NCBI GenBank assembly: GCA_947034885.2
Contig: OX344758.2
Location: forward strand, 18,627,067-18,691,066
DNA: 64,000 nucleotides
From: Thuidium tamariscinum
Taxonomy: Eukaryota; Streptophyta; Bryopsida; Hypnales; Thuidiaceae
Direction: 5' to 3'
The notes below the pieces were generated by a model. It ran no database searches, was not told where the DNA came from, and was given only the letters and a program-made list of their open reading frames with translations. How positions within the stretch are numbered: the stretch's first letter is position 1; every line of letters begins with the position of its first letter. Below, piece after piece: positions 18,260 to 46,610 of this stretch. Both the position numbers and the translations under genes were made by a program.

Positions 18260-18494
18260 TTAACCTTTAAAGGATAAGTTGGTTTAACCATAGGTATTAT
18301 CTCTTTTGGCATTGTATAACATCATCTATTTTAAATAAACGACTAAAACTGCTAATTGGAAGTCAAACTATTGTGTGTGATCTCCTCTTCCTGCACAAAT
18401 TTCTATAGATGAAGAATTGTGCATGTTTTCTATATAGAAAGATTCTTTGTCATTCATAGGCCAAAATATAGCCAAAGCATTATTTAAGAGTTAA
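18260..18494 (+). mobile_element. Short TTAA-flanked element, TTAACCTTTAAAGG end
   Basis: Left end TTAACCTTTAAAGGATAAG at 18260; the right end looks like TTTAAGAGTTAA at 18483-18494. Its interior 'ttggaagtcaaactattgt' recurs in the element at 26031-26252 and, diverged, near 60450. About 235 bp, noncoding. Confidence 0.5.
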
Positions 18495-20159: not shown

Positions 20160-21673
20160 TCTAATCCCTAAAAGATTGTTGTCTCTTCTAGGGACAAAAT
20201 GGATTTTGTGTAGGTTTCTATGACTACAAAAAGTAAAAAGATTAAAAAACTTGTTAGCTTCATGGGAATGTAATAAGAATTTCAATTAGTGACCAAAAGC
20301 AAAAGATATTCTATCTTAAACATAATTATCATGTCGTTAGGATTGAAAAGAAATCCACAAAAACTTGAAATTCAATTTTTAATTTTTTTCCATATTTATA
20401 TTTTTGTCTACATGTCAAGTTGTGATTCATTCCATTTGGATTAGTAATGCTAAAGTTATGAACAATCTTTTTTTTGAGGCAATCTAAACATCTTGAAAAA
20501 ATAACTTCTATAGAAACTAATTTTTTAATGCACTTTTTACAATTTTTTTCCAAAAAGTTGTTTGACAAGGTTAAGTTTGTTTTCTAGAATAATCTCACCA
20601 TAGGGATTATTGTATTTCAATCCTATCTTTGAAATATTAACAATTTTGTTTTACTTTCAATCTTGCACCTACTTCTATTTAACATTTTTTTAACCCCTAA
20701 ATGCCTAGGGCACCAAAATTTAGTGTTTGCAAAACTTTGAAGTTAAAGAAAACCTAACCAAGTTGCTATTCTTAGTAGTTTGTATTATTGAGAATTTTTT
20801 GAAGTTTACTTTTAGCATCAAAAACCCGATCTTGAAAATCATTGACTATGATTTTTCTATTCAAGATTTTGTGCAAGGATACCCATTGCAATCTCAACTT
20901 TCTCTAGTATTGAGGGCTCTTGGAAATGAACCTCAAATACCCTAGATCTTGGAGAAAAAATCACATTCAATTTAAAAAAAAATTGTAGAGTAGATTTCAA
21001 GAAACAATAAATTGATTGTAGTTATGCTTGTTAGGTCCTTTCACCTCATATTTTTTTGGTCACCAACTTTATAGATTTGACTTGTGAAAAGGAGATTGAA
21101 AGACTACAATTCACTTTTCCAATTTCAACATCCTAATGGTCTAACATTATAATCTTTCAATTCATAAGTCCTATTGTTGTGTTTCTTTTCCTAAGTGATC
21201 TATAACATGTCTAGTTTGAATTTGTATTGTTACATTTTTTTAAATTGATAAAGCTCATCATAAAGTTGACTTTTTGTTCACTTTATAACAAATTCCTAAA
21301 AGCTCAAAAAGGCCTTGGACATTTATGGGTTAAAGAATAGAATTTTTCCAAACTTTCAATTGAATACTTCAACACAAATTGTTTTAATCCAAAGTCTTTA
21401 ATGCAAAAAATTTCTACAAATAGATGTCAAAATCATTTGAAACTATAAGCTAGTATTCAAATCTATTTTTTAATTTTAAATGCTAATATATTTCAATCTA
21501 TATTATCAAACTTCATTAAATTTTTACCTCATGATCTTAAATAAGTAAATTATAAGATCCTACATTTAGTTGCTTTTTAAAGTATTTTTTAAAATTTCTA
21601 GGATGAATGTAACAAAAATGGTAGTTTTGAATATTTTTTGATAGAAAAATGGCCTTGGTCCTTTATGGGTTAA
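20160..21673 (-). mobile_element. piggyBac-like MITE (main family), interrupted by a nested element
   Basis: Inverted copy of the family seen at 31026-31953. Its left end (CTAATCCCTAAAAG) corresponds to the reverse complement of that element's right end. Its right end is GGCCTTGGTCCTTTATGGG before TTAA at 21670-21673. Without the nested element (20694-21329) it is about 870 bp, the normal family length. Interior landmarks such as 'ctagaataatctcacca' match the other copies. Confidence 0.75.
20690..21333 (+). mobile_element. TTAA-flanked element nested inside another
   Basis: TTAA at 20690-20693 and 21330-21333 bound a 636-bp insert with ends CCCCTAAATGCCTAGGGC and GGCCTTGGACATTTATGGG. A related element at 42240-42300 has the same flanks joined by a single TTAA (42290-42293, followed by AGAAT). 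That proves insertion at TTAA with duplication of the tetranucleotide. Confidence 0.82.
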
Positions 21674-21862
21674 GCGGTTCTTTTGGACTCCTCTATTTTG
21701 AATTTATTTATTTAGAAATTTTATTATTATATTTTACAGCAATTTTGAAATTAAACTTTCATTTTAGGAAAATGAATGAGCTCATTTTACTCATCAGCCA
21801 CTAGTTTATTCCATTCATTGCATCATCAAAATGATTGTGTATTTAGTGGTTTATTTCAATTA

Positions 21863-22803
21863 TTAACCCCTAAAGGACTAAACTGCGTTTTTTGGCAACA
21901 TAGCGATTTTGGGCAGCTCACTACGGATGGAGTTTTGGATTTTTTTTCTTTGAAATTTTCACACAACATGTTCCCAAGGAGTATCTTGAAGGCCCAACAA
22001 TCTTCATAAATTTTGACTACATGGTCAAAAAGTTATTGTATGATATGTAGTTTTCATTGGTTGGCAGGCAGCCCAAAAATTTCTTATAAAAATATTTTCT
22101 TAAATTAAAAATTTGAAATTGGTTTTCTAGATGTATATATATACATACATACAAAGAAAGATTTGAATCTTTCTATTTGATTTATGAGATGAAAGTTATG
22201 AAGAGATTTAGTTTGCATGCAGTTATGGATTGTCTACTCTAAAATAAACTTTGGAAGCCTTTACTTTAGTCAATTTTAAATATTTTTGAAAAAAAACTAA
22301 AATTTTGGATGTTAATTGTTTGTCACAACATTACAACCATTGGGATTGTCTTTTTTTTAATTTCATAAATAAATTTTTAACAATTTAGTTTTTGAATCAC
22401 TCTCTACTTCTTTCGACTCATTAATTTTTTCCTATATGTTGTACAATTTCAAATGATGCAATTTTTTTTGAGCATATAGCTAACTTGCCATGAAGAATGA
22501 ATCCAAAGAAGCACCATTATTTTGGAAATTTTTTCATAGAAATGTGACCTTGTGAAGTGCAGTTGCTCAATTTTTTGCAGGGACAAAAAAAAGGGTTTTG
22601 TCAATTCAAATGCTAATATCTTGCAATCTCCAAGGTGGAAATTTCTGAAATTTTTTCAACATCTTTTGACACCAGTGTATTACAAGATCCTACGGTTAAA
22701 TGTGTCAAAAAATGTTTTTTTTTCAAAATTTGGTGCTTGTAATAGAAATGGTTGTTTTTGTGTGTTTTTGGTGAAGACATAGTCTCTAACCTTTAGGGAT
22801 TAA
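21863..22803 (-). mobile_element. piggyBac-like MITE
   Basis: TTAA at 21863-21866 and 22800-22803; ends CCCCTAAAGGACTAAAC and GTCTCTAACCTTTAGGGA. The right half, read in reverse, has the same layout as the left half of the 31-kb element. Small ORFs inside lack protein-like features. Confidence 0.75.
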
Positions 22804-23138
22804 CAATAACTTTTAGTAATCACCAAATTATTATGGTTCACTCCACTTATTATCCTAACTATTTATAATTTCATTTATGAAAAGTTTACACTTTTAAAAT
22901 CAAAGTTTAGTGTGTGGCATACTTTAAAGAGTCAATTAAAGGAGAGACATCTTCTTTGCCTTAGAAGAGTTAGAACAATCATTAGAATTATTTACAAATG
23001 TAAAAATCAACTATGTCAAAGCTTCTTACTAGAAAGATTTTGATTGATGGTCACAGCTCAATCCTTAGAAGACCAAGCGCTTTTAACTCCTAAAGCCCTA
23101 AGCTACGTTTTTTGGCAACATAAGTTTTTTGGACAGCT

Positions 23139-24211
23139 GTAGTATAGTTTTTACATAATTCAACTCTTCAACCCCCAAGAACTCTTCTCTCATGGAAGAC
23201 TCAAAAGGTGTCAAGTTGTGGCTTAAGCTATACATAATTAAAGCTACACAAATTTGAATGGTATCACTAGAAGAAAACTACATTGTATTTGACAAAAACT
23301 GTATTGAAACTGTGTTGCATTCAACGTAACGCGTGGAGTGGATTGTGTTGAAGTCCTGCTTTGTCATGCGAAATTTTTCATTCTAACACAAAATTCTGCG
23401 TTTTCCTTATTCAATTTTGTGTTGACATGTTGAAACGCATAATTTTGCGTTATGAAGGGAGAACTCAACACAATCCACTCCACACGTTACGTTGAACGCA
23501 ACATAGTCTTTGTTAAGTAAAACACAAGTTTGGCAAGTTTAACGCAAGTTTTGGCATGAATAGTGTAGTTTTCTTCTAATGTATTAATTTGACATGTAGA
23601 CAATTTAATTTCACTATTACACCAACCATAGAATGACTTGACAAATAATCCCATACAAATTTAATGTAACTAGAGTGTTTGCTTCTTATAAAAAAAATCG
23701 ACGAGCAATTCCTAAACTACGACACACTATTGTGTACCAAATTGATAAGAAGATGACTTGCCACCTGCAAGCCAATATTATAAATTGATTGCACCGCTTG
23801 TGCAAACTACTTGAGAATTTGCTACACTACTCACCATCTATGAGCTAGCAAATTGACACAACTTACAATACACCAACAAGACACACAAATTGTTTTTTAT
23901 TGATAATGTCTATATACAAGTTGACTCCAGAAAACTATAATTCCAATTGCAATGGATACGTAAGAGAGAGAAAAAAGAAAATCAACTAGACTTAAAGTCA
24001 AGTGGGAGTAATAGAAAGACATATCTATTCATTTAAGTTGCCCTACTTCAAATCTTTTCATTTAGTTTATTTGATATCTAATCTTGTAAATTGTCCTTCT
24101 ATATTGATTATCAACTGATTTATCATGGTCCAATGGAAATACAATCTATTAGTTACTCCTATTTACACTAGAAAAAATGAATAGACAATTGGAAAATTCA
24201 CGTGACTACAG
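23139..24211. mobile_element. Nested insertion flanked by CAGCT
   Basis: The foldback arm is interrupted after CAGCT (23134-23138) and resumes after CAGCT (24212-24216). The insert begins GTAGTATAG and ends GTGACTACAG. It carries the CACTA-like MITE at 23265-23581. Its family is unknown. Confidence 0.55.
23265..23581. mobile_element. CACTA-like MITE with TAT target duplication
   Basis: Ends CACTAGAAGAAAACTACA and TGTAGTTTTCTTCTAATG, flanked on both sides by TAT (23262-23264 and 23582-23584). Plant CACTA transposons end CACTACAAGAAA and make 3-bp duplications. Internal arms pair around the Acc/CG-rich words 'cgtaacgcgtggagtggattgtg' and their complement near 23470-23490. Confidence 0.8.
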
Positions 24212-24632
24212 CAGCTCACTACGAATGGAGTTTTTTTTTTTTCTTTGAATTTTTTACACAAGATGGGCCCAAGGAGTAGCTTTAAGGCCCAAAATTTTCA
24301 TAACTTCTGACTTTGTGGTTAAAAATTTATGGCATGATATGTTGTTTTCTTTACTCAAAGGGCAGCCTGGACAGTTGAAAAAAGTTTTTTTAAAGAAGTT
24401 TTTTCAATAGTCCGGGCTGCCCTCTCAGTAAAGAAAACAACATATCATGCCATAAAATTTTAACCACAAAGTCAAAAGTTATGAAAATTTTTGGGCCTTA
24501 AAGCTACTCCTCGTCTCTTCAGGCCCATCTTGCGTAAAAATTTCAAAGAAAAAACAAACAAACTCCATTCATAGTGAGCTGTCCAAAAAACTTATGTTGC
24601 CAAAAAATGCAACTCAAGGCTTTAGGAATTAA

Positions 24633-26030
24633 TTCATTTATTTTGAAATGTACAAAAAATAATCTTTGTTGAAGTGGTCATTCCTTTTTGTACATTAGTA
24701 TTATAAGTTGGACTGTACTTCAAATAAAGGTTTGTTTTTTTATAACATTTTGATCAAGAGTAAGTACATTGGAATTCCTACATGCATGAGAAAGGTCTCT
24801 TTTGTGATATACAAAAACTTTTGCAATGCAAAAAATTACATAGTCCCCTAATGACTATCTTGCCACTACCAATAATTTATAGATTTTTTGAAATGTTTAA
24901 AATAATTTTACCTTTAATCACTATTCATTAAGTGTAAATGTTTTTTTTTCTATGTTTTTGATAAAGAAGGTTTATGAATTGAAATATACACTAGCCACAA
25001 AAATTTGTCTTCATATTATGTTGAGTTAGATCCTATGAAGATGTGGTTCTCCCATTATAAATCATTGTTCCACTTAGAAGTTTGAAAACCTCTGAAATGG
25101 TCACAAATTCCAATTGTATAATGTTGTAACTTTACCATTGATTGATAGTTGGAGGGATAGGAAAAGGTAATAACTTAACTTTAAAATCTTAGAGCCTATG
25201 ACCATATTTTCAAACATCAAAATCTACTACCTTGGATGCTTGATTTTGACATAGAAAATGTTTGGATTTTTTATTTTTTATTTTTCAAAGATTATGTCAC
25301 ATGTCTTCTATAGGCCATAGAAATTTCAGATTTTTTTGAGATTATTTGAATTGTGATGATTCATTGAAAATAAATTGATAAAATAATAAATAAAAAATAA
25401 GCTATAAAAATTTGAATTTTTCACCATGTGAACATTATATGAACAAAATTTCCATATCAATCTATAATTAAAAAAAAATAGAATACCATGGTTATAGGCC
25501 TGTAGTTCAAATGGTGAAAGAAAATTCAATTTAGAATAGAAACTAGACTTTGCAAGCTTCATTTCATTAGTAAGACTCGAAAAAAAAATTTAATGATTAC
25601 ATTTGAGATCAAGAGCATGGTAGGAATTCGCCAAATATACAACTAAAAATGCATATTTTGTAATGTGTCCATGGATATAGTATCTTCTTTTCTAGAAAGT
25701 TATATAGTTCTTCAATGACTATTTTCTACTATTACTACAAAGTAATGTTTCTACACTAAAATAATTATTCCTTTAAATTAGGTTTATGCATCCATTTTTT
25801 AGTGACATTAAGGCATGGTTGATTGTTGATGAGCCACTTTATTGTCGCATTGACATTTCAAGGTTAACCTTGTAATGATGCAATGTCCTAAAATTGTCCA
25901 ATGAATAAATTTCTAAATCATTATTGAAATGAAGAATGCACCTATTAGTTTAAAAATCATATCTAAAGGTATTTTTTGACCAACTACAATATATAAAATT
26001 AATAAACAAGTAATATAGGTTGAACTTAAT
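24633..26030. other. AT-rich intergenic DNA
   Basis: No gene, RNA or clear repeat recognised. Short ORFs are random in AT-rich sequence. Confidence 0.4.
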
Positions 26031-26252
26031 TTAACTCTTAAAGGACAAAGTGGTCACTATGGAAATTATCTATTTTGATACTGTGTGAATCATTGGTTAA
26101 AAAACAAAACACTCATTGGAAGTCAAACTATTGTAGAGGATCTCCCTTTTTCATACAAAATTTCCAAAGTGAATAGTTGCACTTCTATCCCACACAAAAA
26201 GATTCCTTATCATTCATCAAACACTAAATGTCTATGTTGACATTTAAAGGTA
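26031..26252 (+). mobile_element. Short TTAA-flanked element, second copy
   Basis: Starts TTAACTCTTAAAGGACAAAG and shares 'ggaagtcaaactattgt' and 'gatctcc' with 18260-18494. It probably ends near ATTTAAAGGTAA at 26243-26252. The boundaries are approximate. Confidence 0.45.
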
Positions 26253-27380
26253 ATAATGTGAATGTAGCATGATTGATAAGCTATACAGAAAAAAATTGAT
26301 GAAAAATCATTGATTCTTCAATATGAAATGGAATGTTTGACTATAAATCATATCCAAATGGTTTACAACATTCATAGAAGGTTGAGAACAATTACAAGGT
26401 TGAGAGCCTAGGCCATCAATGCTTAGATGCCGAAATTGAATTTCCATGTCAAATTCTCAAGGGTCTACATCACCTCACACTAATCACAAGATGGTGTGTG
26501 GCATATTTTTTACAAAAAATGACTTAATTTATACCAAATGTGACCTTCACATACAATACTAACTACTAATAACAATGACCACATTAGTGAATTGGCAATG
26601 AACAAAAAAAGTCTCAATACTATGGAACATGCAAAGGTATGATTCATTGCAATAGAACTTTAAATAAACAACACTCCCTAAAGTAATAAACTTCTTTTCA
26701 AAAAATTTGATTGTTGGTTGCCCCTTACAAATGTCATGAATGCAAATTACCCTCCCTTAATTTAATCCTAAAAGGGCCCAAAAGCCCTAAGTAACTATAT
26801 ATAATATTATGGATACAATGGTATTTAATCAAAAGAAAATTGACTAAATACTTTTCAATGTGAGGTAAATCAACGCTCATAATCATATGTAAATAACAAT
26901 GTATCACAATTCATGTATGAAATCACAATTAAAGTGTTGTAAGGCTAAATATGAGTCATATAGAAAAACGTGAAGGCCTCTCTAGGATTGAACAGCTCTC
27001 TATTGTAATACGATAAATCAATCCCAGCCCCATTGCTTAATAGCAATTCTACTTTAACCAACTTTAGTTTGGGGTACGTTCTCACCTGATATTAAAAGAA
27101 GTACTATGAAGAGTCCTAGAAACAAATTTAGATCTTCAAGATTGAATTCGCATCAAGCATCACCCTTGACATCAGTACTAATACCAAGTGCTAACACACC
27201 CTTAACTTGATGTGGACAGTTACATTCAACCCCAAAAGATCACCTACTCTACTATTGAACCAATAAGTGCATTCTTTGTTTCTACAGTTCACAGTGAAGT
27301 CATCCATCGGTCCTTTCATCCACCGGTCCTTTCAGATCCGCAGCGTCCTGGTTGCAAGCGGCATCAGCAAGATCAACCTG
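26253..27380. other. AT-rich intergenic DNA
   Basis: No gene recognised. A sequence like a TTAA-family left end (TTAATCCTAAAAGGGCCC) lies near 26763 without a matching right end. Confidence 0.4.
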
Positions 27381-27515
27381 AAAAACCTCGAGTCATTTGG
27401 ACCTTCCGGCTATCAAACTAATCTTGCAACAATGCATATGCTTACGTTCAGCAGCACTAGGTTCATGATTAAGATCTCTGCTCAAGACAGAAGCAGCGTA
27501 CTCTACATGTATTCT
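27381..27515. repeat. Diverged dispersed repeat, copy 2
   Basis: Counterpart of 14775-14905 (shared GAGTCATTTGGAC, TTCAGCAGCACTA and 'tcaagacagaagcag'). It lies about 0.9 kb past the stop codon of the CKS gene on that gene's 3' side. Confidence 0.5.
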
Positions 27516-28379
27516 AGAATTACAGTAGCTGAAAACCACACGCACACGCAACATTTTAATGAGAATTGGATCTGCAAAACCTTTTACCATTTTGAATATG
27601 CCAGAAACATACTACGGTGCTAAATCAAGTTACAATGCGAAATCGCCAGACATACATGCAACGACAAAAAAAATGACAATAGTCCTCACAGACGGGTAAA
27701 CGGGTTAACAAAAAAACAAACTATTGATAAGTCTTGAAAGAGAAATGGTCCAAATGGCCAGAGCAGCAGAAGTTATTGCCGCTATAATAAAGAATCCTTA
27801 CTTAGAGCACACCAAGAATGAGATCAAATATGAAAATATAAACGGTCTTAGTCATCAACCAGTGAAAGTTTCTTCTGAAAACTTCGTAAGATTAACCTCC
27901 CACAGGATGGATGACATCAAATCCTCCGTGAAATAAAAGCTACATCTAAATATAGTTCACATCAGCGACCACTGCGTGGACAAGGCAGCTGAACCTATCA
28001 ACGTAGAGTAGGTACTAAAGTCCCAAATACACGCATGTAACATCATAAGCGCATGATGTATGCTTCGTGGAATATGAAGATCGATTACCAGAAGTAACTG
28101 GAAGATTCTTCAGTACTTGATATTATCTAATCACACAACAACCACACATTAGTCACTGAGTTGTAACCTCTGAACACAATTCCAGTTGAGGTCTCTACCT
28201 CCCGCGATTCCTGTATAGAAAGAGTAGTAACATGAAAGAAGACTTCGTGAGAATAGACGAAGGTTACATGTTCCAAATCCACTTGGCTCCTTAAACCATA
28301 GATCTATAATTTAACTCGATGACATTCAAGTAGCAAACCTAATCCCCCGAGGAGATAGACTAACCTGGAGAGAAGACGA
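27516..28379. other. 3' flank of the CKS gene
   Basis: More balanced base composition than the deep intergenic DNA. It probably includes the CKS 3' UTR on the minus strand. No further coding region could be supported. Confidence 0.4.
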
Positions 28380-29308
28380 CTAGGCTTTCATGCCAGCAGC
28401 CTGCTGCTGCTGAACAGCGGCAGCTTGCTGAGGCTGGCCGTAGTTGAGGGGCCTGCGAAAGAGCATGATGTGTGGCTCGGGTCGGTGAATGGCATAATGT
28501 ACCCACCCACGCGACTGCTGGACTCCAATTCCACGCCATTCAGCCTGTTCTCAATCACAAAATACGAATTCATTAACACCGGTACTTAGACCCAGTGAAA
28601 CGCGGCGCCTGGGGCCTGTTTTGGTACACCGAGAGGTCAAGACATTGAACATACTTAGCTTCGTCATATAGAAAGCAATTAATACACCCTAAACTCCTTC
28701 AATTGCTAACCCAATTTAGCTACCATCAAAAACTTATGCATTCTCATAATAGGAGATAAACTCAATCGCTTTAAATGCGTTGTATCTGCAGGACGAATAT
28801 TGATATCTCTTTGCGTGAACAGAATTAACAAGAAAAATTGGCATGTGATACTCCTCAATCGCGTCACGAGAAGAGGCACTGAAAAATTGACGTAAAATCT
28901 CAGACGGCATACCTCAGACAGCAGTCGGTTCTTGGGTAACAACTTCGCAATGTCAGCGGGGAGCACAACATGCCTGAGCCATCCCACAAAATTAGTACAA
29001 AGTTCACATAACCAAAGTTCATAAACCAACGTATTCAATCCAAGCAGCCGTCAAGCACCAACCATGGAACAATGTCGCACCCGGCTGAAAATTCGGGCAA
29101 TCCAATAACCATCCCCACCAGCGTCACGCAGCGTATGAGGCCAAGATGAACATATGGCAAATGACAAGAAAACGAGGAGAAATTACAGAAGCCACATCCA
29201 TGAACCTCAAAATAGCACACTCAGCCCCAATTCCTCACTTCCACAATACACACACCTGTACTCGTAGGTGTCATCGAAATACTTCTCGGAGTACTGAATC
29301 TGCGGCAT
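28380..29308 (-). CDS. CKS1: Cyclin-dependent kinase regulatory subunit (CKS1/Suc1), 3 exons
   Basis: Small adaptor that binds CDK and phospho-Thr and promotes multisite phosphorylation in the cell cycle. Minus-strand exons are 29308-29256, 28973-28913 and 28544-28380. The introns are GT-AG, and the spliced ORF encodes 92 residues. The protein starts [18 protein letters not shown] and continues [20 protein letters not shown]. Next come [17 protein letters not shown] and [18 protein letters not shown], which carry the Suc1 signatures, including the HxPEPH β-hinge and the phosphate-binding Arg/Trp residues. A Gln/Ala-rich tail (residues ~76-88) ends GMKA. Length and sequence match plant CKS proteins (~85-90 residues). 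Each exon is too small or frame-split to show as one ORF. It appears intact. Confidence 0.95.
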
Positions 29309-29692
29309 TCTTCCGGTCTTCTCTTTCTCTCCCAATCCTACATAGTGTCCATAAAGCATAAACCCGAAAGACCGTCACAAACACAGATCGCAAAGAACAT
29401 GAGATTGCTACACAGTAATGCGCCAAAAGAAAAACCCTCCAACGAAAAAGACACCCAACTCAAGCAGAGAAACCCACCAAGGATTTCGCAGCGGACAAGA
29501 AAGAGGAAGGCGATCTGGAAATGTAGAAACAGGTGAGCAGCGAAGTGTACCGTGAAATCGGAGAATACGTTCGAGAGGGCGAGAGGATGGCGGCGTGCAG
29601 GGGACGCAGAAGCGAAAGGGGAGCGGGGGAATTTCAAAAATGGGCTGTCGAAGCTGCGAGACGGGTGACGCCCTCCATCAACCCGTTGTCGC

Positions 29693-30086
29693 TCTGTTCA
29701 TTACAACCGACCTCTTGACTTCGTTCATTTCCCTTCTCTCTCTGTTCATCCATACTCCTTTCGATTCTCTGTACATCCTCATGGTGGTACTCTGTTCATC
29801 CATACTCCGTTCTCCGGTCATAGACTCATAGTTGAGTCCGTCTCTGTTCATTTTCCCATCCTCGGAATGCTGCGATGCAACCCGTTCATCCTTCAGTTTC
29901 GAGTGAGCATGCGAACCGTTCCCCTGTCGTTCTCCCGGGGATTGATACCCGGTGAAAGCTCGTGACGCAGACATCAACCGAGGGTCTAGTGTTGACTTTC
30001 CCGGTTGGGAGCAGGCAGCTCCAGTGGAGACCGGAATAGGCCCCCATATGAACATTATAATCAGAACTTTGAATTTCTGTTCATTG
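29693..30086 (-). promoter_or_regulatory. CTGTTCAT motif cluster upstream of the CKS gene
   Basis: The 9-mer TCTGTTCAT starts at 29693, 29741, 29791 and near 29841 and 30076; shorter GTTCAT cores lie near 29722 and 29884. Two of these sit in identical 18-bp copies (29741-29758 and 29791-29808) exactly 50 bp apart. The cluster is 0.4-0.8 kb upstream of the CKS start codon in a GC-richer island. A regulatory role is inference; it could be a small local duplication. Confidence 0.35.
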
Positions 30087-30194
30087 GAAGTGCATTAAAA
30101 AATACTTTGCATGTGAGCAAGGAAACTCAAACTTACACATTGGACATATAAAATAAACCAAACCAATTCATAAGCTGGTCAAAAGACAAAAAAT

Positions 30195-30361
30195 CATTAG
30201 AAGAAATCTGCGTTTGCCTCAACAAAATCTATAATTTGATGTGTTCATTGAGGCAAATGTAAAAATTGTGTTTTATTGCATTCTTCAATACAATTTTTGC
30301 ATTTGCCTGAACAAACACATCAAATAGATTTTGTTAAGGCAAACATAGATTTCTTCTAGTG
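30195..30361. mobile_element. CACTA-like MITE with AAT target duplication
   Basis: Ends CATTAGAAGAAATCTGCG and AGATTTCTTCTAGTG, flanked by AAT at 30192-30194 and 30362-30364. The interior is a near-complete foldback (TTGCCTCAACAAAATCTA with its complement). At 167 bp it is a smaller relative of the element at 23265. Confidence 0.8.
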
Positions 30362-30364
30362 AAT

Positions 30365-31025: not shown

Positions 31026-31953
31026 TTAACCCCTAAAGGACCAAGGCCTTTTTTCTATCAAAAATCTTTCAAAACTGCCATTTCCGTTGCATTCACCGAA
31101 GAAAACAAGAGAAAATAATTTTTTAAGAATCTAACCACAGGATCTTGTACTTAACTTGATTGAGATCATGTGGTAAAAATTTCATGAAGTTTGACCGTAT
31201 AGATTAGAAGATATGAGCATTCAAAGTTGGAAATACAATTTTTTTTGAACTGTGGACTGCAATTTCAGATGACTTTGATTGCCATTTGTTGAACTTTTTT
31301 GCACTATAGACTTTGAATTAAAAAAAATTTGTATTTAATAATTGAGTTGAGAGTCTAAAAAAAAATTTACACAAAAAACACCTGATTTTCATTCTTTAAA
31401 AAATTGTTAAGTAGATGTAGGTCCAAGATTTAAAGAAAAACTAAATGGTTAATAACTCTAAGGTGGGATTGAAATACAATAATTCCAATGGTGAGATTGT
31501 TCTAGCAAGTAAACATAACCTTGTACAACAATTTTTTTTTGAAAAAATGTGAAAATTGCATTTAGAAATGAATCCTATAGGTTATTTTTTTGAGAAATTG
31601 TTTAGATTGCCTGAGAAATAAGATTGGCCATAACTTTCTCATTATAAGTCCAAATAGAATGAATAAAAGCTTCACATGTAGGCAAAAATATATTATTTCA
31701 GAAAAAAAAAATTTAATTAAACTTTGAATTTTTGCAAAAAAAAATTCTGCCCATTGAACGAAAATTTGGGCTATTTGTGGTATAACTTTTGCTCCCGGTC
31801 ACCAGTTGAAATAAAAATTACATTTTCACAAAGCTAATCAATTTTTCTATCTTGTGAGAAAGTTTCAAAAGGTTTCACCAAAAATTGAAGTCTACGGAAC
31901 TTGTCCGAACTCCAAATTGTCCCCCGAAGGGACAATGGTCCTTTAGGGGTTAA
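31026..31953 (+). mobile_element. piggyBac-like MITE, best-preserved copy
   Basis: TTAA at 31026-31029 and 31950-31953 bound 920 bp. Ends are CCCCTAAAGGACCAAGGCC and GACAATGGTCCTTTAGGGG. The four C/G bases next to TTAA resemble the CCC start of piggyBac ends. No ORF over 100 codons and no DDE/D transposase motif seen; presumably mobilised in trans. It serves as the reference for the family. Confidence 0.8.
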
Positions 31954-34423: not shown

Positions 34424-35142
34424 GAGTGATTGCAAGAAACACTTGTCCTATTTTGTCACATGTTGCATGCTGATTTGTTTTTTGGCCATAACTTTTGTAT
34501 TTTAGCCTCGATTGACTCAAGATCTTCAGGGAAGGTACTCATAACTATTATAAACCTTCCATAATTTTTTCATAATTTTCAAAAATAGTTTACTATCCAA
34601 ATTGGACCCCAATTGGATGTTACACTTGGCAATTTAGGGGGTTTTAGTACTGGGGAGTACCTTTTTTTAGTGATTTTAAAATGAAATTTAGATGAGATGG
34701 TCTTCTAGTATATTTCTAGCTCTCCAAGGAAGTATTTTTAAAAATAGTTAATTTTATGTGGTGTGGAGGTCTACAAAGTGAGCTCCCTTTTGCTTATATT
34801 TTGAAACACATAAAATATTGTTTTGGTGGGTTTTCTAGTGAATGACCATCTCCATAAAGTTGTTGCAAAAGTACACTTTTTATTTTTTGAAAATATCTAT
34901 TTTTACTATTTTTACCTAATTAAAACATGAAGATATGTATTTTTTGGAGGTTTGGGACTTTTCAAGTTCTCCTACTTAGAGAATTTTTCTATTCATTTCC
35001 TTCGGTGAAAACCTTCATCTTAGAGGTATATACATTATTCATATTTTTCAAATTTAAAAAAAAATAATTTTCTAATTTTAAAGTACTCCCAAAAAAATCA
35101 GCCAAATGCAACAAATAGGACAGGTGTTTCTTGCAATCACCC
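34424..35142 (+). mobile_element. TTGCAAGAAA-ended MITE, copy 2, ATTG flanks
   Basis: 719 bp, ends GAGTGATTGCAAGAAACAC and GTGTTTCTTGCAATCACCC. ATTG immediately flanks both ends (34420-34423 and 35143-35146), a possible 4-bp target duplication. The interior is collinear with copy 1 at 18560. Confidence 0.75.
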
Positions 35143-37399
35143 ATTGAAGCTTTTGGAGCCTTGAAAAAAAACATTGGGAATGTAAGAAAATCCATACAAT
35201 AGAGGCTATGGAATAAGTGGGGAGTGCAATTTGTGTTAAAAGTCAAAGTGTTTGAAGTATAAGTATAAGTTTCAAGTTGCTACTAAAAGCTTTAGGCATA
35301 GTTAGGAGACTAATTTGATCCCCTTTTAGGAGTTTGACTACGTGTTAAGCAAAGATTGTTGATTAAAATACCCATAGTCAACCAATTGAAGTTGTAAGGT
35401 CTTAAGTATATTTTTAATTAGTACATATGAAGCTTATGTCATTACAATTGTTTGATTTTTAGAATAATTATAAGCTAATTAGTAGTAATTGAAATTAAAG
35501 ATTGTATTTCTAAAATATTCCAAAAAATACATGACAAAATACAATATAGAAAATAAGTTGGAGAAAGCGAAGAGGGAAAATATCAAAAAATAGATCATAG
35601 GTTAAAAAAAGAATTAGATCACAAATAGAATTTGTACACCTTGTCGTAAAAGTTGTTATTGAAGTTGTATACGAAGAGATAAAAAAATGCAACAAAAATG
35701 GATGAAGGCAAGCCTCACAATACACTGATAGTATACATGTTGGACAATAGAAATGTGGTAGAAATGGATTCCTAGGCATATCCAAAAATTTTGTACTTTG
35801 TCATTTCTCTTATTGTAGGAACCGTAATTATATTAGAAATTAGAGGTTTAAATCAAACCTTTTGAAAATTTACTAAAATCCAACTTTGAATTCTAGATCA
35901 CTTAGATAATTTTTAGAGGTTCTACTAACATATCATACTTTATAAAATTTGAAAAAATTAGGAAAGACAAAATACAATGAAATTAGATAGTCAAAATCAC
36001 TAGCATTACATGAAATTTGAGGGCATTAGGAGACTACGGGTTTCCGGATTGCAGAAATGTAGTTTCTGCCCTGTGAATTTGAATCCTACGTAGTCACGAC
36101 CTTACTACGTAATTTTTTTTTTCTTTTCAAAATTTTTTTGACTTATTTTCATACTTCAGGACCCCATTTAAAAAAAATTAAAGCTGGCCTAACAACGGCC
36201 AGTGGCATTGGGAGCTGTTTTGGGAACACACCTGAAACGGCCTTGTAATGCCTTCAAATTTCTTCTAATGTTTTAGATTAAAAATATCAAAATTCATCTA
36301 ATGTAAGTAAAAAATCCTTAATACTTAGATGACATTTAAAATCCAACTTTGAAAGTAAAAATTAATTTGGGCTTATAGGCTAGAAGAAAATGTTGGATGA
36401 AGTCTTGGAGGATGAATTATAAATAAAACTTCATCCATCAATAATTTTTGCTAAAAAATACCATTATAAAGGTTTTTATTACTAATTTAGAATAGGCATA
36501 TTATATTGTACAACTTAAGCTAATAAATAATAAAAATTTGAATTTTTCAATTTGGATTTGGAAATCTAGAGCTTATGCTTAGATTGGCCAAAACCATTCA
36601 AAACTTCTAATTTCTACAAATTTGTATCAATTTTAGTTAAGTTGTGATTAATTTCTAGTTTGATGTTAGCTAGAATGTTAGAAAAAACTTATTTATTGTA
36701 TAAAATACAAAATGAACAACTTTTAAATATCTAATTTAGGATTCAAAGCCCAACAACAAAGAATGTGGTTGAATATACTTTATTTCAAGGATATAGATAA
36801 AATTTCATGCATGTCATCATTGTCATGTATTGAAGTGTTTTTTTTTTTTTGAAAGGTTCTCAAAGATGTCATCTTATAAAAAGTCTCTATAGGCCATACA
36901 AAAGTCACATAATTATTCATATGATGATTGAGGCTCACCATGGACATATGTGCACTTATAGTCTTATATTGCAATTAGAAGATGGTTGTTTGGATGTTCT
37001 TACAAGGATAAAGACCTCAAAAGCAAATCCTTTTTTTGTTATAAAATGTTTTTAAATAGTGCTTGTATAAAATACTTTTTCTCCTATACACTTTGTACAT
37101 AGATGTAAATACATCAATAAACACATGAGATGTGCTTCAATGTCTTTTTTATTGCATAATTGTAGGTGTTTAAGGCTTTGCAACTTCACTTCAAACATTT
37201 TGTAGGATTAGAGTGTGGCAACATTTATCCATTTTGGATCAAATTTGATTGATAAATTAGCTTAATTATATAGTAGTCATTTACATGCCTATTTAGGTCA
37301 AATGACTAAAGCAAAGCTTGTTCATGACTAGGGCAAGTTGCATAATTAAAGTCTTAAAACCCTAGTTTCCACTTCTTTGTAGCAGCCCCTGATTTAAGG
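35143..37399. other. AT-rich intergenic DNA
   Basis: No gene recognised. A short GC-richer patch at 36030-36120 ('ctacgggtttccgg', 'cctacgtagtcacg') stands out but has no coding or repeat assignment. Confidence 0.4.
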
Positions 37400-37745
37400 C
37401 ATAAGAGGATTTTGGGGCTTTTGGGAGACTATTTTAGGGTTGTTCCTTCAAATTGTTTCCAGTCCTATAGACCAGTCCCCTGCTGGTCTGAGTTTTTGAA
37501 TTTTGAAAATAAAATAAAAATATTTTTTCCAAAAAAATTCAGAATGTATTAAAAAGCAAGAAAATGATTTTAAAAATATTTTAAAAACATTTAATAATTA
37601 ATAATTAATAAAAAAATTAATTAATTAGTATTTTCTAACTTGGTAGTCACTTGACCACATCAATATAGTATTCCTAGCATTTCCAATGTGTTCCCAATAT
37701 TTGGGAACTCGCAGTCTTATAAACTAGCCAAAAATCCTCTTATGT
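37400..37745 (+). mobile_element. CATAAGAGGATTTTGG-ended MITE, copy 1
   Basis: Ends ATAAGAGGATTTTGGGGC and GCCAAAAATCCTCTTATG. Interior blocks ('cagaatgtatta', 'tttgggaa', 'gcagtctta') match a second copy at 60983-61325. Confidence 0.68.
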
Positions 37746-37799
37746 TTTGAAAACAAATTATCATTGTTTGTAGCTACCCCTTGAAAGCGGAACATTTGA

Positions 37800-38215
37800 A
37801 TATCTTTGTTTCTTTCTCTTTATTTCTTGTTGCCTCTTTGTGTTTGCTTCTTGTTGCCTTTCAATTGTTTAAAAAAAATTTCTCTTGTTAGCTCTAGCTT
37901 CTTGCTTCGTACTTCTTGTTGCTTATTTCCTCTTGTTTTTTCTGATTTTGTATTTCATGTTGTTATTTGTTACTTCTTATTTGTTCTTGTTGTTTCTTTT
38001 ATTTTTGCTTCTAATTTCTTCTTGTTGCATCAAAGTTCTTACTTCCTTTTGTTGTTTATTTTCTTTTCTTGTATTTTGTTGTATCTCAACCTATATTTCT
38101 TATTGTATCTTAAATTCTTAATTCTTGCTTATTCTTGCTTTTTGTTGCATCTTGTAGCATCTTACCTTTTGCTTGTTGTTAGCTCTTAGCACTTGCCACT
38201 TTTTGTTAATTGGTA
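37800..38215 (+). repeat. Pyrimidine-rich CTTCTTGTTGC-type degenerate repeat
   Basis: A strongly strand-biased T/C tract with many variants of CTTCTTGTTGC. It leaves a 127-codon frame open that reads as Leu/Phe/Ser/Cys with no domain. I regard that as composition, not a membrane protein. Confidence 0.55.
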
Positions 38216-38263
38216 TTGTTGAAGCTATGATTGAGTAGCTTAATTGAATGTCAAAATAGGATG

Positions 38264-39184
38264 TTAACCCCATATGTTCATTGACTATGTTTACTCCAAA
38301 AGCGGTCAAAAATTGCCATTTCTAGTGCTAATACCAATTTTTTTTTTATAGATTTATAACCATAGGATCTTGTGGTAAAATGGTTTGAGAACATGTGGAA
38401 TTTTTTTTTCAGTTTTTTATCGTATAGATTGCAAGATATTAGCAATTGAATGTTCATAAATAATATTTTTTACCCTACAGAAAACAAGGTATTAGCTTTT
38501 TAGTAAGCAACAATCATACAAAAAATGGTTAAAAACAATTATACTTTTTGGGATTCATTGTTGAAGCCAAGTAGGATACATGCCTAAAAAACTTCAATTT
38601 ATTTGGAATTGTACAACATATAGGAAAAAAAATAGGAAGTAGAAGGAACTAGCAAATGATTCAAAATACAAAATTGTTAAAAATTTCTTTAAGAAATTGA
38701 AAAATGTCAATCCCAATGTTTGCAATGTTGTGATAAATAGTTTACATCCTATGATTCTATTTTTTTTGAAAAATATTGAAAATTGAGTAAAATAAAGGAC
38801 TTCAAAGTTTATTTTAGAGTAGAGAATTCATTATTGTCCGCAAACAAAAACTCCTCATAACTTTTGATTCATTGATCAAATTGAAATGATTCAAAGCTTT
38901 ACACACAAACCTAAATGAAGAAAATCAATCTCAAATTTTAGTATTTGAAAAATGTTTTTTTTTTTCAATCTACCCAAATTGCAATTATGAAAAAAAGTAA
39001 CATATTAGGCAATAACTTTTTACTTGTATTTCCAAATGTCCTATATTTTAGTGCATTTGAAAGATATTCCTCTTCCCCACTTTATATTGAAATTTGGGCC
39101 TGAAGTAATGAAATCTCTAGTTACACATACCTGCCTAAAATTATTATATTGCTAAATTTAGTAGGTTGGTCTTTTAAGGGTTAA
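38264..39184 (+). mobile_element. piggyBac-like MITE (diverged)
   Basis: TTAA at 38264-38267 and 39181-39184, 913 bp between. Ends CCCCATATGTTCATTG and GGTTGGTCTTTTAAGGG. The internal order ('aaattgccattt', 'ataaccataggatcttgt', 'agattgcaagatatt') follows the 31-kb copy. Confidence 0.7.
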
Positions 39185-40156
39185 TAAATACATAGAATAT
39201 GGAATTGTGAACTTGTTAGATATATAGTAATGAACAATCCAAAGTAATGAATGTAAAACTCATCTAAGGTATAAAAAGGAATCTATTGCATACACAAATG
39301 AATCGTGAGCTTAGGGTGTAATGTTGTGAGTGTTATCTTCAATATCCTCCTTTGTTCATAGCGTTACTATTTTGTTTTGCAATATACAAAATGTTGTGAT
39401 GCATCTTTCTTCCTACAAATACACTTAAGATCTTGAGTTTACTTATTGAATGCCTATCATTGGTGAGTGATTGCTCATGTTTCTTTAATTTGAGTCGGTA
39501 TTTTATAGTTGAGAAAGAAGAGCTAATTGATCCGGAAGTTAGTTGGCAAAGTCAACTAATTTTTGTATTCTTTTGGTGGTTGGTGATTGTAATTTGACAA
39601 CCATGCTACAAGATTTTTGAGATTTGTAACTTTATATTTTGATTTCTTCAAGGAGGTTAACAAGTTTCACATTAATTTGATAACACTACATCTAAAATTG
39701 TTAGGGTTCATAAAATTATTGCTAGTAGTAGTAAATAGAAGGATCTTGTGATGTATACTCACTACAAGGGAAATGGGTCCTAATTTACAAAATTTTGACA
39801 AAAAAATGTTCGAAATGATAGCTTAATGTTCGAAACGGCAGCCACAACTTTTGAAAGTTGGCACTTTGTCAATGCGGTCAATTCTTCAATCAATTTTGAC
39901 AAACAAGGTTAATGTCTTCTTAGAAACCCAACAAAATTTTACATATAATTTTTATTTTAGATACAAAATGATGAAGTTATCATTTACTAACACTATGAGA
40001 AAATGTACCTCATTGCAATCTTCAACTACTCATCATCAACACCTTAACATTACTTGTTTATAGGGGAATAAAACTCCCATTATATACTTTGAGTGATAAG
40101 AGGTCGACCAATCCATATGGGATATATGAATTCTTAAAGTTGTGAGAGCTCATAGT
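39185..40156. other. AT-rich intergenic DNA
   Basis: No gene recognised. CACTACAAGGGAAATGGG at about 39761-39778 looks like a CACTA-type end, but no partner end was found. Confidence 0.4.
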
Positions 40157-40560
40157 TAAGTTAAAAACCCAAAATTTTGTATTAAAATTAGGATTTTAAA
40201 CCTCATTTAAGCGTAGTAGAATGTCTTTTTTCAAAAATATTTGAATTAAGATTAGTTAAAATATGAATTGGAGTTTCAAATCCAAAAATCCATTTGACAT
40301 TTCAAGTTTTCAATCAAAAGTTATGAATAGATTTCAAAAAGGAAGTTTGAAAAAATGTAATAAGAACAATTTCAAACACTTCTTTGAAATTCCATAACTT
40401 TTGATTGAAAACTTGAAATGTCAAACGGATTTTTGAAGGCAAAACTTTAATTTATTTTATAACTAATATTAATTTAATTTTTTTGAAAAAATACATAATT
40501 ATACTATGCCTAAATGAGGTCTGAAGTCCTAGTTTAAACACAATTATTATTTCTAACTTA
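40157..40560. mobile_element. Large foldback element, copy 1
   Basis: Two arms of ~200 nt start TAAGTTAAAAA and end TTCTAACTTA. Both contain ACCTCATTTA and TTTGACATTTCAAGTTTTC or their complements. It shares its outer parts with 49026-49398. Noncoding. Confidence 0.7.
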
Positions 40561-40586
40561 ATACTTACATTCTTGCTATGTTTATT

Positions 40587-42695
40587 TTAATCTTTGAAGG
40601 ACCAAGAGTTCCTTTAGAGAATTCTTAACTTCTTGAGACTTTAGGCAAGTTCCTATAATCTCAATTTTTTTGAAATAATTTGAAATTTTCTCATCATACA
40701 ATTTTTTTAATAAATTCATAGAAATATAATTTTTTAATTTCAAATCAATGCTTGGAAACAAAAGTTATGCCTTCTTTAATATAGTTTTCATGTCATTGTC
40801 TAGAAAATTTCTACAATAACTTAAATGTTTTTTTCTTCTTACAAATCTTATACTTTTCTACATGAAAAGCTTCTATTCGTTCCATTTGGATTAGGGAATA
40901 GGGATGTGAAAGTTATGAACAATCTTGTTTTTTAAACAATCTAAGTATCTTAAAAACAACAACTTATAGGATTCATTTTTGAATGCAATTAATTTTTTTA
41001 TAAGGTTTACCTTTAAAAGACCAAGGCCTTATTTTTGTAAAAAAACACTCAAATCTACCATTTCTATACTAAAGAATTAAAAAATCTGAATTTTTTTTAA
41101 CATCTAACCATAGGTTTGTACACCTAATTAATATGAGGATGTGTGTAAAAAAATTTCAAAATTTTGTATCATATAGATTGCAAGATATTTGCGTTTTAAG
41201 TAAGAGAAACAAATTTTTGAGCACATTGTAGGGACTAGATTATTTGGCTTTGAACCTTCTTAACTTTAATTTTTTGCACTATATAGAGTTTGAGCTTTGA
41301 ATATTTATAGTAGACAATTCAGTTGAAGGTCTAAGGAAAAAAAATGAATTCTAAAAAACTTAATTTTTATTCTTAAAAAAATTGTTATTTAGAAGTAGGT
41401 ATGAAATAGAAGGAAAATCCAAATTAATAATAATATATGTGAGATGGAATTAAAAGGCACTAGTCCCAATGGTAAAATTATTCTAGAAAGAAAAATAAAC
41501 CGTATAGAACTTTCTTTTTAAAAACTTGTAAAACTTGCATTCAAAAATGAATTCTTTAAGTTATTTTTTCAAAAAGATACTTAGATTGCCCCCAAAACAA
41601 GATTGTCCATAATTTAATGCAACTTATTCAAATGAAAAAAATCAAAGCTTTCTACATAGACAAAAATATAATCTATGAGAAAAGAAATTCTAAAAAGAAA
41701 TTCAAAATTCAAATTTTTTTTAGTGTTTGGTCTCCTTTGTTTTGGATATAATTTTTGTTCATGGGTACCAATTAGAGAAAAATTATATTTTTATGAAGCT
41801 ATTTAGTTATTTTGTCTTCAAAAAAAGTTTTAAGAAAATCATTAAAAAAATTCAAACCATAGGTACTTGCTTGAAATCCCATTTGTTCACTAAATGGACA
41901 ATTGTCCTTTAGGGGTTAAGTTTGTTTGCTAGAACAATCTCACCATTGAAATTATTGTGTTTCAATCCCATCTTACATAAGAAGAAATTTAGCCCTTGCC
42001 TAGAGTTGGTTGATTGCATGAAAATGTGCAATTACAATTTAAAAAGAAAAAATGCAACAATTTTTTCTTGGCCCATGTAGATCACTTGTTGAACCAAGTA
42101 GGATATGGGACTAAATTTATTTATTTTTCTATAAAAAATAATAAAATAATAAAACTTTACTCTTCCTTTAGATTTGCACATTGGCCAAAAGTCAAATGGC
42201 CCTTTGTAGGGTCCAAATTTTCTCTAATGGAGATTATAATAATTGAAATTTTCCTTTCAATCTTTGATCTACTTCTACTTAATAATTTTTTAAAGAATGA
42301 TAATCAAACAACATGCTGCAATAAGTGTTGTTTTTTTAGTTTTTATTCCCTAGACTTTCTACTCAATTCTTCAACATTATAAAGGGATTCAAAGTCTCTA
42401 GATAGTGCAAATTCTTTTTGCAAATGGGAGTCAAGGTCATTTGAATTTTGAAATTGCAAGTCAATGTTCAAAAAAACTTTTCTTTTTCTAATTTTGAATG
42501 CTAGTATCTTTCAATGATCTATTTGGACAAATTCCATAACAGTTTTATCATAGTCATGATCTTTGACAAGTAAAATACCAATTCCTATGGTTAAATTTTT
42601 TTTCTTAATTATTTTTTGGGATGAACCCATCAAAATGACACGACTCTTGAGTGGATTTTTTTACAGAAAAATGGCCTTGGATCGTGAGGGGTTAG
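40587..42695 (-). mobile_element. piggyBac-like MITE (inverted), interrupted by another copy
   Basis: The left part, 40587-41005, starts TTAATCTTTGAAGGACC. The right part, 41920-42695, ends GGCCTTGGATCGTGAGGGG followed by TTAG. A second family member sits at TTAA between them. Relative to the copy at 20160 the right part carries about 250 extra bp around 41975-42235. The region 42240-42300 preserves the empty TTAA site used by the nested element at 20690. Confidence 0.7.
41006..41919 (+). mobile_element. piggyBac-like MITE nested in an inverted relative
   Basis: Ends CCTTTAAAAGACCAAGGCC and GACAATTGTCCTTTAGGGG, flanked by TTTA (a one-base variant) and TTAA (41916-41919). In the related element at 20571-20574 the same flanks (aagg and gtttgtttt) meet at a single TTAA. 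Confidence 0.78.
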
Positions 42696-42750
42696 GCTTC
42701 GGGTGCTCTGGTTTCTACCTGTCCAGAGCACCTGCACAACTGCAGTATCC

Positions 42751-45330
42751 GGACTGGCCTTCCACCGCCCCTTCGGCAGTTGCCTCCCCTCCACGATCAT
42801 AATCAGGGAATAATAATTAATCATTTCGCATCAAATTGAGCGACACCCTCGTCCAGTACGTGATCAAAAATTTGACTAACAAGTTGGCGTGCACTTCAAA
42901 AGTCCGAGTACGTACGTCCCTGGGAAATGGATTCACACTCAGGATCATCGATCAAGCAACTTACAAAACGAATTCGGACTAACTTACAGTACCCCACCAC
43001 ACACTTTCAGTTGCAGTTTGCGGGATATTGATCTTACGTGCAGGGCAATGCCCGAGGAGCTGAGGAGGGCCGACGAGGAGGGTGGAACCCAATGAGGAGG
43101 CTCTTTCATTGTGCAATGCCTGGCCACAAGAAGCTTGGCTTGGCGTAAGCAAATCACGGGAAGAAAATTGGGATGAAATCGATAAGACAATTAAACATGA
43201 TGATGATTGACATGAAAAATGCGTAATGCCCGATTACATGGGCAATCCTCGTGATTGAGCATTAAGTACACCCTGATTGCAGCACAAAAACTCTCTGCCT
43301 CTCCGCAAAATGGAAGGGAAGGGCCATTTTCTTCCCGTGGTTTACGATATATTGGATTACTGTCGTGAGCTAACTTAATTAGAACCTTTGACTCTTTGCA
43401 AAATTCAATTGCAAGAGACACAGCGGAAATGGGGAAGCAGGCGGACTAGTAAGAGTCGCAGAGATGTTCACCAAGAGAATTGCCCAAATCGGCGAAGAAT
43501 GATGTGCCGTTTTCTGTTTTCTTGAGGGAAACTCATGCATGAAAATTTTGCAGTTTGCTGATTTGGCCCTCTTCTAAAGTAGGCCACATGCGGTTAGCCT
43601 TGCGGCTTTTCAAGCACCTACTCGAAGTTAGTGAGCGTCCACCACCCAGGCATGTATCCAGGGATGATGTCGTCTGCAATCGAGATTGTCAACACCCAAA
43701 AGTTCCGCGTTGGATCACTAAACAGCCTGGACTGTTCTGTACATTGAAAATTTACACTTTTGATTCTGGAAGTAAATTTTTTTATCATTTGGGAGAAGTA
43801 GTCACCTATTTCCTCAATACAGTACTCAGGTGTTACTTGGGTGATAGTTCAGTGACATGTAAAGTAGTCTGCTCTAAAAGTGATTGTATTCTAAACGTGA
43901 ACCCTATCTAGAAACAAGTGACATCTTGTTTGAAATATGTAATTTTGTCAATGATGACTTAGATTTATGAGCAAACTACCTTATATCAAAACTAGGTGAC
44001 ACCTAGATAACATTCAGCTATTGTTTACATATTCAATATTAACCACTTAACCCCTAAAAGCCCAAGGGGTTAGGACAAAACACAAATGTGTTATAAAATA
44101 TAAGTGTTACAACTTTTTTGAAGTTAGTATTATAGAAGATAATGTAAAGCACAAAAAGTAGAAAGTATCCATACAGTCAAAGTAAAAAAAATATTTTTAG
44201 ATTATTTTTAAATGAATTTTGAAGATATAACTTCAAAAATTCACCAAAAATACAATTTCTATTCTTAGGATTTGAAATTTTTTTTGATTGGTCAAAATTG
44301 TGTTTTTTATTGATTTATATAAAATTTCAAAATATTCAACCTCTAAAAGCCTAAGGGATTAAGACAAAATACAAATGTGTAATAAAATATAAGCTTTACA
44401 ACTTTTTTGAAGTTAGCTTCAAAGAAGATAATGTAAAGCACAAAAAGTAGAAAGTATCCATATGATCAAAATTTAAAAAATATTTATAGATTCTCTTCAA
44501 ATGAATTTTGAAGATATAACTTCAAAAATTCACCAAAAATACAGTTTCTATTTTTAGGATTTGAAATTTTTTTTGATTGGTCAAAAACTCAAAATTGTGG
44601 TTTTTATAGATTTGTTAAATAACAAAAAATATTTATTAATGAGAGCATCAATACTTCCCCCAAATAGTAAGTTTTTCAACACTAAGCAATTTTAGACACT
44701 TTGTGCTATTTCTACTTTTTTTTGCTATAACTTTTATTTGACCTTATAGATCTTAGTTTTGAATGCAAATGTTGAAATACAATCCAAAATTTTCAGATTT
44801 TGAAAAAGAAAAAGTTGAAAAAAGTTGTTTTTTTGCCCAAAAATGCTGCCCGAAGTTGGGTAGCGACCAAAAAATGGTCACTTGAGCACTTAGGGGTTAA
44901 GACTATTTGTTTGTTTGATTATTTGTCAAGTTGAAATCTCCTGGACCATGCTTCCCCAAGTCAAAGTCTTCATACCATTGGATAGCTCTTGGCAAAGAGG
45001 GGTGCATGGGCTTTGTTTTGTAGCATTTTGACTCACTGTGAGAAAGTTATTGGATTTCAAAAGTTTTATGAATTGGAAAATTGGAAAATTGAAGAGTTAT
45101 TTTTATTTTTATTTTGGTTGTAGCAATGGCACAAGGCACACTAGTAACCATTGAAACGGGCATTGAAAGAAGCTATGGCTAGACCACTCAAAAGTGTCCA
45201 ATAAATGACTTCATTGTTCATTGTATAAACAAATATATGGAGCATTTTGGTGACTACTTACTCACAAGGGGTGCGCCCAAGGAGATTACTTGTGGTTTTT
45301 AGAAAACTACGAGAGTTAAAAGATAGGATT
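42751..45330 (+). repeat. Segmental duplication, unit A (left part)
   Basis: Begins GGACTGGCCTTCCACCGCC and is collinear with 53935-55970; the first ~700 bp are nearly identical by eye. It contains a 68-codon frame (42889-43095) kept open in both copies, ending AMPEELRRADEEGGTQ after a possible splice acceptor (GTGCAG). The opposite strand is also open in both copies, so I cannot tell coding from recent duplication. Similarity resumes after the transposon at 44047-44900. Confidence 0.75.
44047..44900 (+). mobile_element. TTAA-flanked element inserted in duplication unit A
   Basis: TTAA at 44047-44050 and 44897-44900; ends CCCCTAAAAGCCCAAGGGG and GAGCACTTAGGGG. Unit B has no element here: its uninterrupted flanks join at TGAA (55231-55234). 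Inside, the first ~270 bp are directly repeated (44048-44317 and 44340-44615). Confidence 0.8.
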
Positions 45331-46609: not shown

Positions 46610-46610
46610 G

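Follow-up and report, generated by a model that had tools for sequence, protein, structure and literature searches.

Members of the piggyBac superfamily, such as IFP2 of Trichoplusia ni and piggyBat, duplicate a TTAA target, carry CCC-type ends and encode a transposase with the DDE_Tnp_1_7 domain. The miniature inverted-repeat transposable elements (MITEs) of animal piggyBac lineages likewise have TTAA as their target. Such non-autonomous elements have been tied to the superfamily in coral (PMC2872659) and, as mPok, in Daphnia (PMC4912750), and CCC-type motifs are reported for animal piggyBac (PMC10813416). For plants, the six superfamilies of elements with terminal inverted repeats (TIRs) that a 2022 review recognizes do not include piggyBac (PMC9033089). 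In contrast, a repeat annotation of C-fern contains 1,230 PiggyBac repeat hits (PMC6890710), one review names PiggyBac among the MITE superfamilies of angiosperms (PMC10004981), another counts it among the DNA superfamilies of plants and adds that genome editing in plants has already made use of it (PMC10794571), and a further paper states in passing that piggyBac was isolated from plants (PMC10813416). No description of moss piggyBac elements was found in the open-licence literature searched, and because this coverage does not extend to Repbase, the result is weak evidence of absence. The superfamily is a known one in a poorly documented host lineage. Here, we analyze a 64,000-nucleotide stretch of the genome of the moss Thuidium tamariscinum (C10:18627067-18691066, hereafter the window; the assembly spans 363.2 Mb in 19 contigs), in which an earlier note had described piggyBac-like MITEs and had called the superfamily rare or unreported in land plants, a phrase that the 2022 list favors and the scattered plant mentions contradict.

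We are highly confident that the elements in this window are non-autonomous, lie between duplicated TTAA sites and are likely internal-deletion derivatives of full-length piggyBacs residing in the same genome, with cut-and-paste by the transposase of the latter as their predicted mode of movement. All nine elements that had been recognized previously are present, with starts within one base of those proposed, and two more (18260-18494 and 26031-26254) were detected by a weight matrix of the ends combined with a mismatch search, giving a total of eleven elements with TTAACCCCTAAAGG-type ends (strand given where assigned):

18260-18494: short TTAA element, 235 bp; TTAA on both sides; related to 26031-26254; absent from the earlier list
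20161-21673, reverse strand: A-family element, a reversed relative of 31026-31953; interrupted by 20690-21333; ends CTAA and TTAA
20690-21333: element of 644 bp inside a TTAA of the 20161 element; TTAA on both sides
21863-22803: element of 941 bp; TTAA on both sides; one end L062-like, the other L067/L061-like (full-length elements, below)
23083-24632: element of 1550 bp; TTAA on both sides; internal fold-backs
26031-26254: short element, 224 bp; TTAA on the left, right end decayed (TAAT); absent from the earlier list
31026-31953, forward strand: A-family element, 928 bp; TTAA on both sides
38264-39184: element of 921 bp; TTAA on both sides; left part related to the right part of 21863-22803
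40587-42695, reverse strand: A-family element with 41006-41919 inserted in it; TTAA on the left and TTAG on the right; contains the empty site 42290-42293
41006-41919, forward strand: A-family element, 914 bp, inside the 40587 element; TTTA on the left and TTAA on the right
44047-44900: element of 854 bp inside one copy of a duplicated segment; TTAA on both sides; both ends match L063

The outer four bases read TTAA at 18 of the 22 ends of these elements (9/11 left, 9/11 right), compared with 0.8% of all four-base positions in the window, which upholds the proposed association of TTAA with inverted-repeat ends of the CCCCTAAAG type. The first base after the outer four is C or T, and most elements start with CC. 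The ends themselves are well above chance: the 20-bp form TTAACCCCTAAAGGACCAAG, with up to three mismatches, is matched nine times in the window and never in 100 shuffles, and a 14-bp form is matched 25 times (shuffle mean 6.4, maximum 12). The TIR patterns had no match in viral contigs or in prokaryote genome contigs.

These elements had been taken for a single MITE family, a view that we rejected on comparison of their sequences. Only four of them (31026, 20161, 40587 and 41006; the A family) belong together, at mutual identities of 62-72.5%, and a stretch of roughly 130 bp connects this family with the 21863, 23083 and 38264 elements. For the 44047 and 20690 elements, self-comparison of the window gave no match above 60 bits to any other window element. 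Without nested inserts, the elements measure 0.2-0.9 kb, apart from the 1.55-kb element at 23083, and are large for MITEs. Two of them have an unusual internal structure. The 21863-22803 element is a mosaic that has its left part in common with 23083-24632 and its right part with 38264-39184, and its two ends match different full-length elements. In the 44047 element, the 5′ 270 bp (44049-44316) recur as a tandem second copy (44338-44613, 88%), including a terminal-like motif, TCAACCTCTAAAAG, at 44336.

Three of the insertions can be compared with an uninterrupted relative elsewhere in the window, at the positions that the earlier note had given:

42290-42293: empty TTAA site for 20690-21333, uninterrupted in a related copy
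20571-20574: empty TTAA site for 41006-41919, in a related A-family copy
55231-55234: empty site for 44047-44900, reading TGAA, in the other copy of the duplicated segment

The nested insertion at 20690 converted TTAA into TTAA-element-TTAA, and further empty TTAA sites for it exist at 31396-31399 and 41373-41376 in related A-family copies. For the 41006 element, the filled site reads TTTA-element-TTAA against the empty TTAA, and we read the TTTA on its left as decay of one target copy; in other relatives, the corresponding site is TTAT (31515-31518) or, within the 41006 element itself, TTTA. The 44047 element offers a third comparison by way of a 1.3-kb segmental duplication of 86% identity (42751-44050 and 53935-55234), where TTAA-element-TTAA is set against TGAA. 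All of these empty sites are uninterrupted relatives and not products of excision.

Since TTAA is palindromic, a single empty site cannot separate a piggyBac target from that of PIF/Harbinger (Tourist-like) MITEs, which are likewise short, TIR-bounded elements of plants and which would explain the same junctions by a 3-bp TTA/TAA target plus one extra terminal base. The PIF/Harbinger target is given as TWA (PMC12595863), whereas the target of the moss elements is four bases long, as is apparent from copies elsewhere in the genome. With 31026-31953 as the query, there were 6,892 first-look candidates, and among the 40 that were scored, identity is 89-100% across almost the full length of the element. 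Flanks were taken from the 30 best-scoring of these 40, a sample that is not random (32 BLAST rows, two partial ones dropped); all were readable at both ends, and TTAA stands on the left in 30/30 and on the right in 29/30. The information content is 2.0 bits at each base of TTAA (1.79 at one base on the right), as compared with at most 0.47 bits at each of the 24 bases outside it. If the target were only 3 or 2 bp long, one or two of the TTAA positions would be free to vary. In these copies, the base that a 3-bp reading places outside the target is fixed too, and full-length elements with matching ends encode a piggyBac transposase (see below), so that we consider an origin of these MITEs from PIF/Harbinger extremely improbable. 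A mariner-type 2-bp target was also considered and is ruled out by the four fixed bases in the same 30 copies. The consensus of these copies begins with CC at its ends and carries a 14-bp TIR, CCCCTAAAGGACCA. Many of the copies are young, judging by their divergence from the majority consensus, which is 0.65-1.4% in 16/30 and 3.4-6.9% in 14/30. The window copy, 31026-31953, differs from the consensus by 5.3% and falls into the older group.

The moss genome is also rich in sequences that encode the expected enzyme. A search with PF13843 (DDE_Tnp_1_7, the piggyBac transposase domain) returned 659 first-look candidates, of which 116 were scored; all 116 exceeded the cut-off, with a best E of 5.7e-80, and none of 14 control genomes was positive. 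Many of the scored domains carry stops. The 30 loci that were fetched fall into 14 groups at 80% identity, with identities between groups down to 36%. Four elements of different kinds were delimited, each running from TTAACCCCTAA to its inverted copy:

L061: full-length element, 5,143 bp, TTAA at both ends
L062: full-length element, 7,121 bp, TTAA at both ends
L063: full-length element, 5,946 bp, TTAA at both ends, one stop in the frame
L067: full-length element, 6,453 bp, TTAA at both ends, 18/18 end bases inverted-repeated, stops within the transposase domain

A fifth kind (L042-L052) accounts for 11 of the 30 loci. Ten of its copies differ from L042 at only one or two of 3,984 bp, and the sequences just past the right-hand TTAA are all different. 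Three copies of this kind were followed to the left end; they measure 5,096 bp including both TTAA, differ at three positions, have different flanks and share one 1,023-codon open frame. Near-identity of the eleven copies combined with different flanks points to recent transposition. One of them, L044, is inserted exactly in the terminal TTAA of a 21863-like sequence. Read end to end, the five moss elements thus span 5.1-7.1 kb, a size that, together with the moss host, distinguishes them from IFP2 and piggyBat. As a separate observation, two transposase copies with near-identical frames (L036 and L037; C8:23933884-23934996, reverse strand, and C8:23941055-23942167, forward strand) lie about 6 kb apart in opposite orientation.

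What connects the MITEs with these full-length elements is the sequence of their ends. Positions 1-280 of the A-family consensus match the 3′ end of L061 (72%, E 2e-39) and positions 879-930 match its 5′ end (52 bp, 85%, E 4e-11). The order and orientation of the two matches are those that loss of the middle would produce, and L067 shows the same two end matches over 298 bp (1e-38) and 57 bp (6e-10). By comparison, the best of 200 shuffled consensus sequences reached only E 1.35e-4 against L061-L063. Both ends of L063 have counterparts in the 44047 element (48 bp at 87.5% and 23 bp at 96%). The 21863 element is 71% identical to one end of L062 over 144 bp and 69% identical to an end of L067 over about 200 bp. 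In the opposite direction, the last 1,371 bp of L061 found three whole-query copies in the genome at 96-100% (40 scored of 1,754 candidates); in 33 of the 40 scored, the match is confined to its last 303 bp (76%), and these 33 are presumably MITEs. This sharing of ends is most simply explained if the MITEs are internal-deletion derivatives of a moss piggyBac lineage. Compared with the animal piggyBac MITEs, then, those of the A family reside in a land plant, are about 0.9 kb long, and resemble full-length ends over some 300 bp on one side and 50-60 bp on the other. A separate MITE-like stretch occupies positions 1-136 of the L061 locus, approximately 2.4 kb outside the element.

The same full-length elements bear on two further groups of transposons that could account for TTAA duplications. 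Kolobok elements, which have an identical TTAA target and terminate in 5′-RR and YY-3′ (PMC9587614), could have produced the junctions in the window, but the moss ends mostly start with CC and the elements with matching ends carry a DDE_Tnp_1_7 transposase, which leaves Kolobok with next to no likelihood. Sola3 elements likewise use TTAA as their target. Sola is on the list of land-plant superfamilies (PMC9033089) and Sola3 has been placed beside piggyBac in a paper on insect MITEs (PMC5199201); however, several ends of window elements continue into full-length elements with a piggyBac transposase, and we judge a Sola-type origin very unlikely. With the flanks of the genome copies on one side and the full-length relatives with DDE_Tnp_1_7 on the other, the piggyBac-like identity first suggested for the window elements is supported from two directions.

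At the protein level, Pfam recognizes DDE_Tnp_1_7 in seven of seven moss frames, the only other match being a sub-cut-off one to DDE_Tnp_1 in a single frame. The aspartates corresponding to residues 268, 346 and 447 of the T. ni piggyBac transposase, which we take to be its catalytic DDD triad, are conserved in 9/9 moss proteins, and a profile of these nine proteins matches solved chains of piggyBat (4.7e-52) and piggyBac (5.3e-46). Cys pairs are visible by eye at the C-terminus of the alignment and may correspond to the Cys-rich tail of IFP2 and piggyBat; the Pfam zinc models gave no match in seven proteins. With a mean pLDDT of only 57.7, an AlphaFold model of the transposase core was set aside as poor. 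Frames reach about 1,000 codons and differ from IFP2 and piggyBat in a long N-terminal part with a predicted barrel domain. This short N-terminal domain is common to nine moss transposases (L042, 3571-3774 on the reverse strand, L058, L035, L031, L041, L034, L063, L059 and L037), albeit with weak similarity (10-49% identity to the first sequence). In one protein it was modelled as a four-stranded barrel (pLDDT 83), for which the nearest folds in Foldseek were Tudor, SAWADEE and chromo-barrel, with no match below E 0.068; accordingly, the predicted Tudor/SH3-like resemblance is only a lead.

Of 5,795 candidates from a protein search, 127 reached E 1e-10 or better. The nearest of the 120 listed are environmental sequences without an organism name, whose identity to the first query sequence is 75% at most, and all organism-named proteins among these 120 are from animals, the best at about 35%. 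This last point could suggest that the piggyBac elements are contamination or were recently transferred from an animal, and that the MITEs belong to something else. We give this almost no credence: the matches are distributed over contigs C1-C10, the 30 fetched loci form 14 groups with identities down to 36%, and the MITE ends continue into the piggyBac elements. Moreover, in a FastTree phylogeny of 90 sequences (rooted on T. ni by choice, with hits shorter than 400 residues and the weakest hits excluded), 14 moss representatives and 15 environmental sequences form one clade with a support of 0.999, apart from the animal proteins, support elsewhere in the tree being uneven. The moss sequences are thereby separated from IFP2 and piggyBat in a clade of their own.

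Several observations weigh against a piggyBac origin of the window elements and have to be set beside the evidence above. Four of the 22 window ends are not TTAA, namely CTAA (20161), TTTA (41006), TTAG (42695) and TAAT (26254), and the lone right-end exception among the best 30 genome copies is GTAA; these 30 were not drawn at random, being the top of 40 scored copies among 6,892 candidates. No transposase domain was found in positions 18,001-48,002 of the window in six frames, with stops read as X, where the domain scan returned only a CKS gene and a sub-cut-off match to TEP1_N (E 0.025). The frame of L063 is broken by one stop, and in L067 stops occur inside the transposase domain. Finally, the full-length relatives that were found for the A family are only 72-85% like it at the ends, whereas its youngest copies lie about 1% from their consensus. 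The direct partner of these copies, for which an identity of at least 95% at the ends would be expected, has therefore either not been found or is gone, L061 and L067 would be relatives of that partner rather than the partner itself, and we infer from the same end identities that the current partner is a further relative of these two.

By analogy with the superfamily, a dimer of piggyBac transposase would bind the element ends, cut at TTAA and join the element to a new TTAA, and the excision site would be sealed seamlessly, with a single TTAA left, as in other piggyBacs. Full-length transposase copies would serve the MITEs in trans. The anatomy of the MITEs fits movement by the moss piggyBac transposases, a role that we infer, and very young copies of both kinds of element are present. 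A broader proposal is that mosses possess a piggyBac clade of their own that is ancient and remains active, with elements of 5-7 kb, a Tudor-like barrel that steers integration by way of chromatin, and thousands of TTAA MITEs; we advance it tentatively, as possible but somewhat doubtful in its entirety.

Host genes lie in the window as well. A single-exon CENP-S/MHF1 frame (15841-16290, reverse strand) has its best organism-named matches in Ceratodon purpureus (81%) and Physcomitrium patens (78%), followed by Sphagnum (64%) and, lower, vascular plants, while sequences without an organism name reach 91-98%. These best matches identify the host as a moss and so agree with the land plant that the earlier note had assumed. 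Two further host genes were recognized by domain matches:

10381-10830, forward strand: exon of an ELO-family fatty acid elongase
28449-29299, reverse strand: CKS gene, two exons

The window also contains duplicated LRAT-domain genes (PF04970) and an inverted fragment resembling their 3′ part (50972-51820, 56810-57745 and 63546-63803); a protein search with LRAT gave four matches, of which the sole organism-named one is from Amborella (30%). A further repeat family occupies 18560-19287, 34424-35141, 46610-47344 and 61840-62591, with partly overlapping matches of 69-82% and ends like GCAAGAAACACTTGTCC. Two inverted repeat pairs (3060-3329 with 4923-5201, and 6188-6580 with 8561-8955; 88-89%) may be other elements with long TIRs.

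Within a single moss genome, there are at least 116 piggyBac transposase domains above the Pfam cut-off, several lineages, near-identical copies and 6,892 first-look candidates for copies of one MITE family. No moss piggyBac population that is large, diverse and young was met in the partial literature searched. Taken together, these properties make three questions testable: has an old lineage persisted in mosses, is it currently active, and can it provide a native tool for plants? If mosses do harbor an ancient and active clade, land plants would gain their first well-documented living piggyBac system, and plant genome engineering a natural tool.

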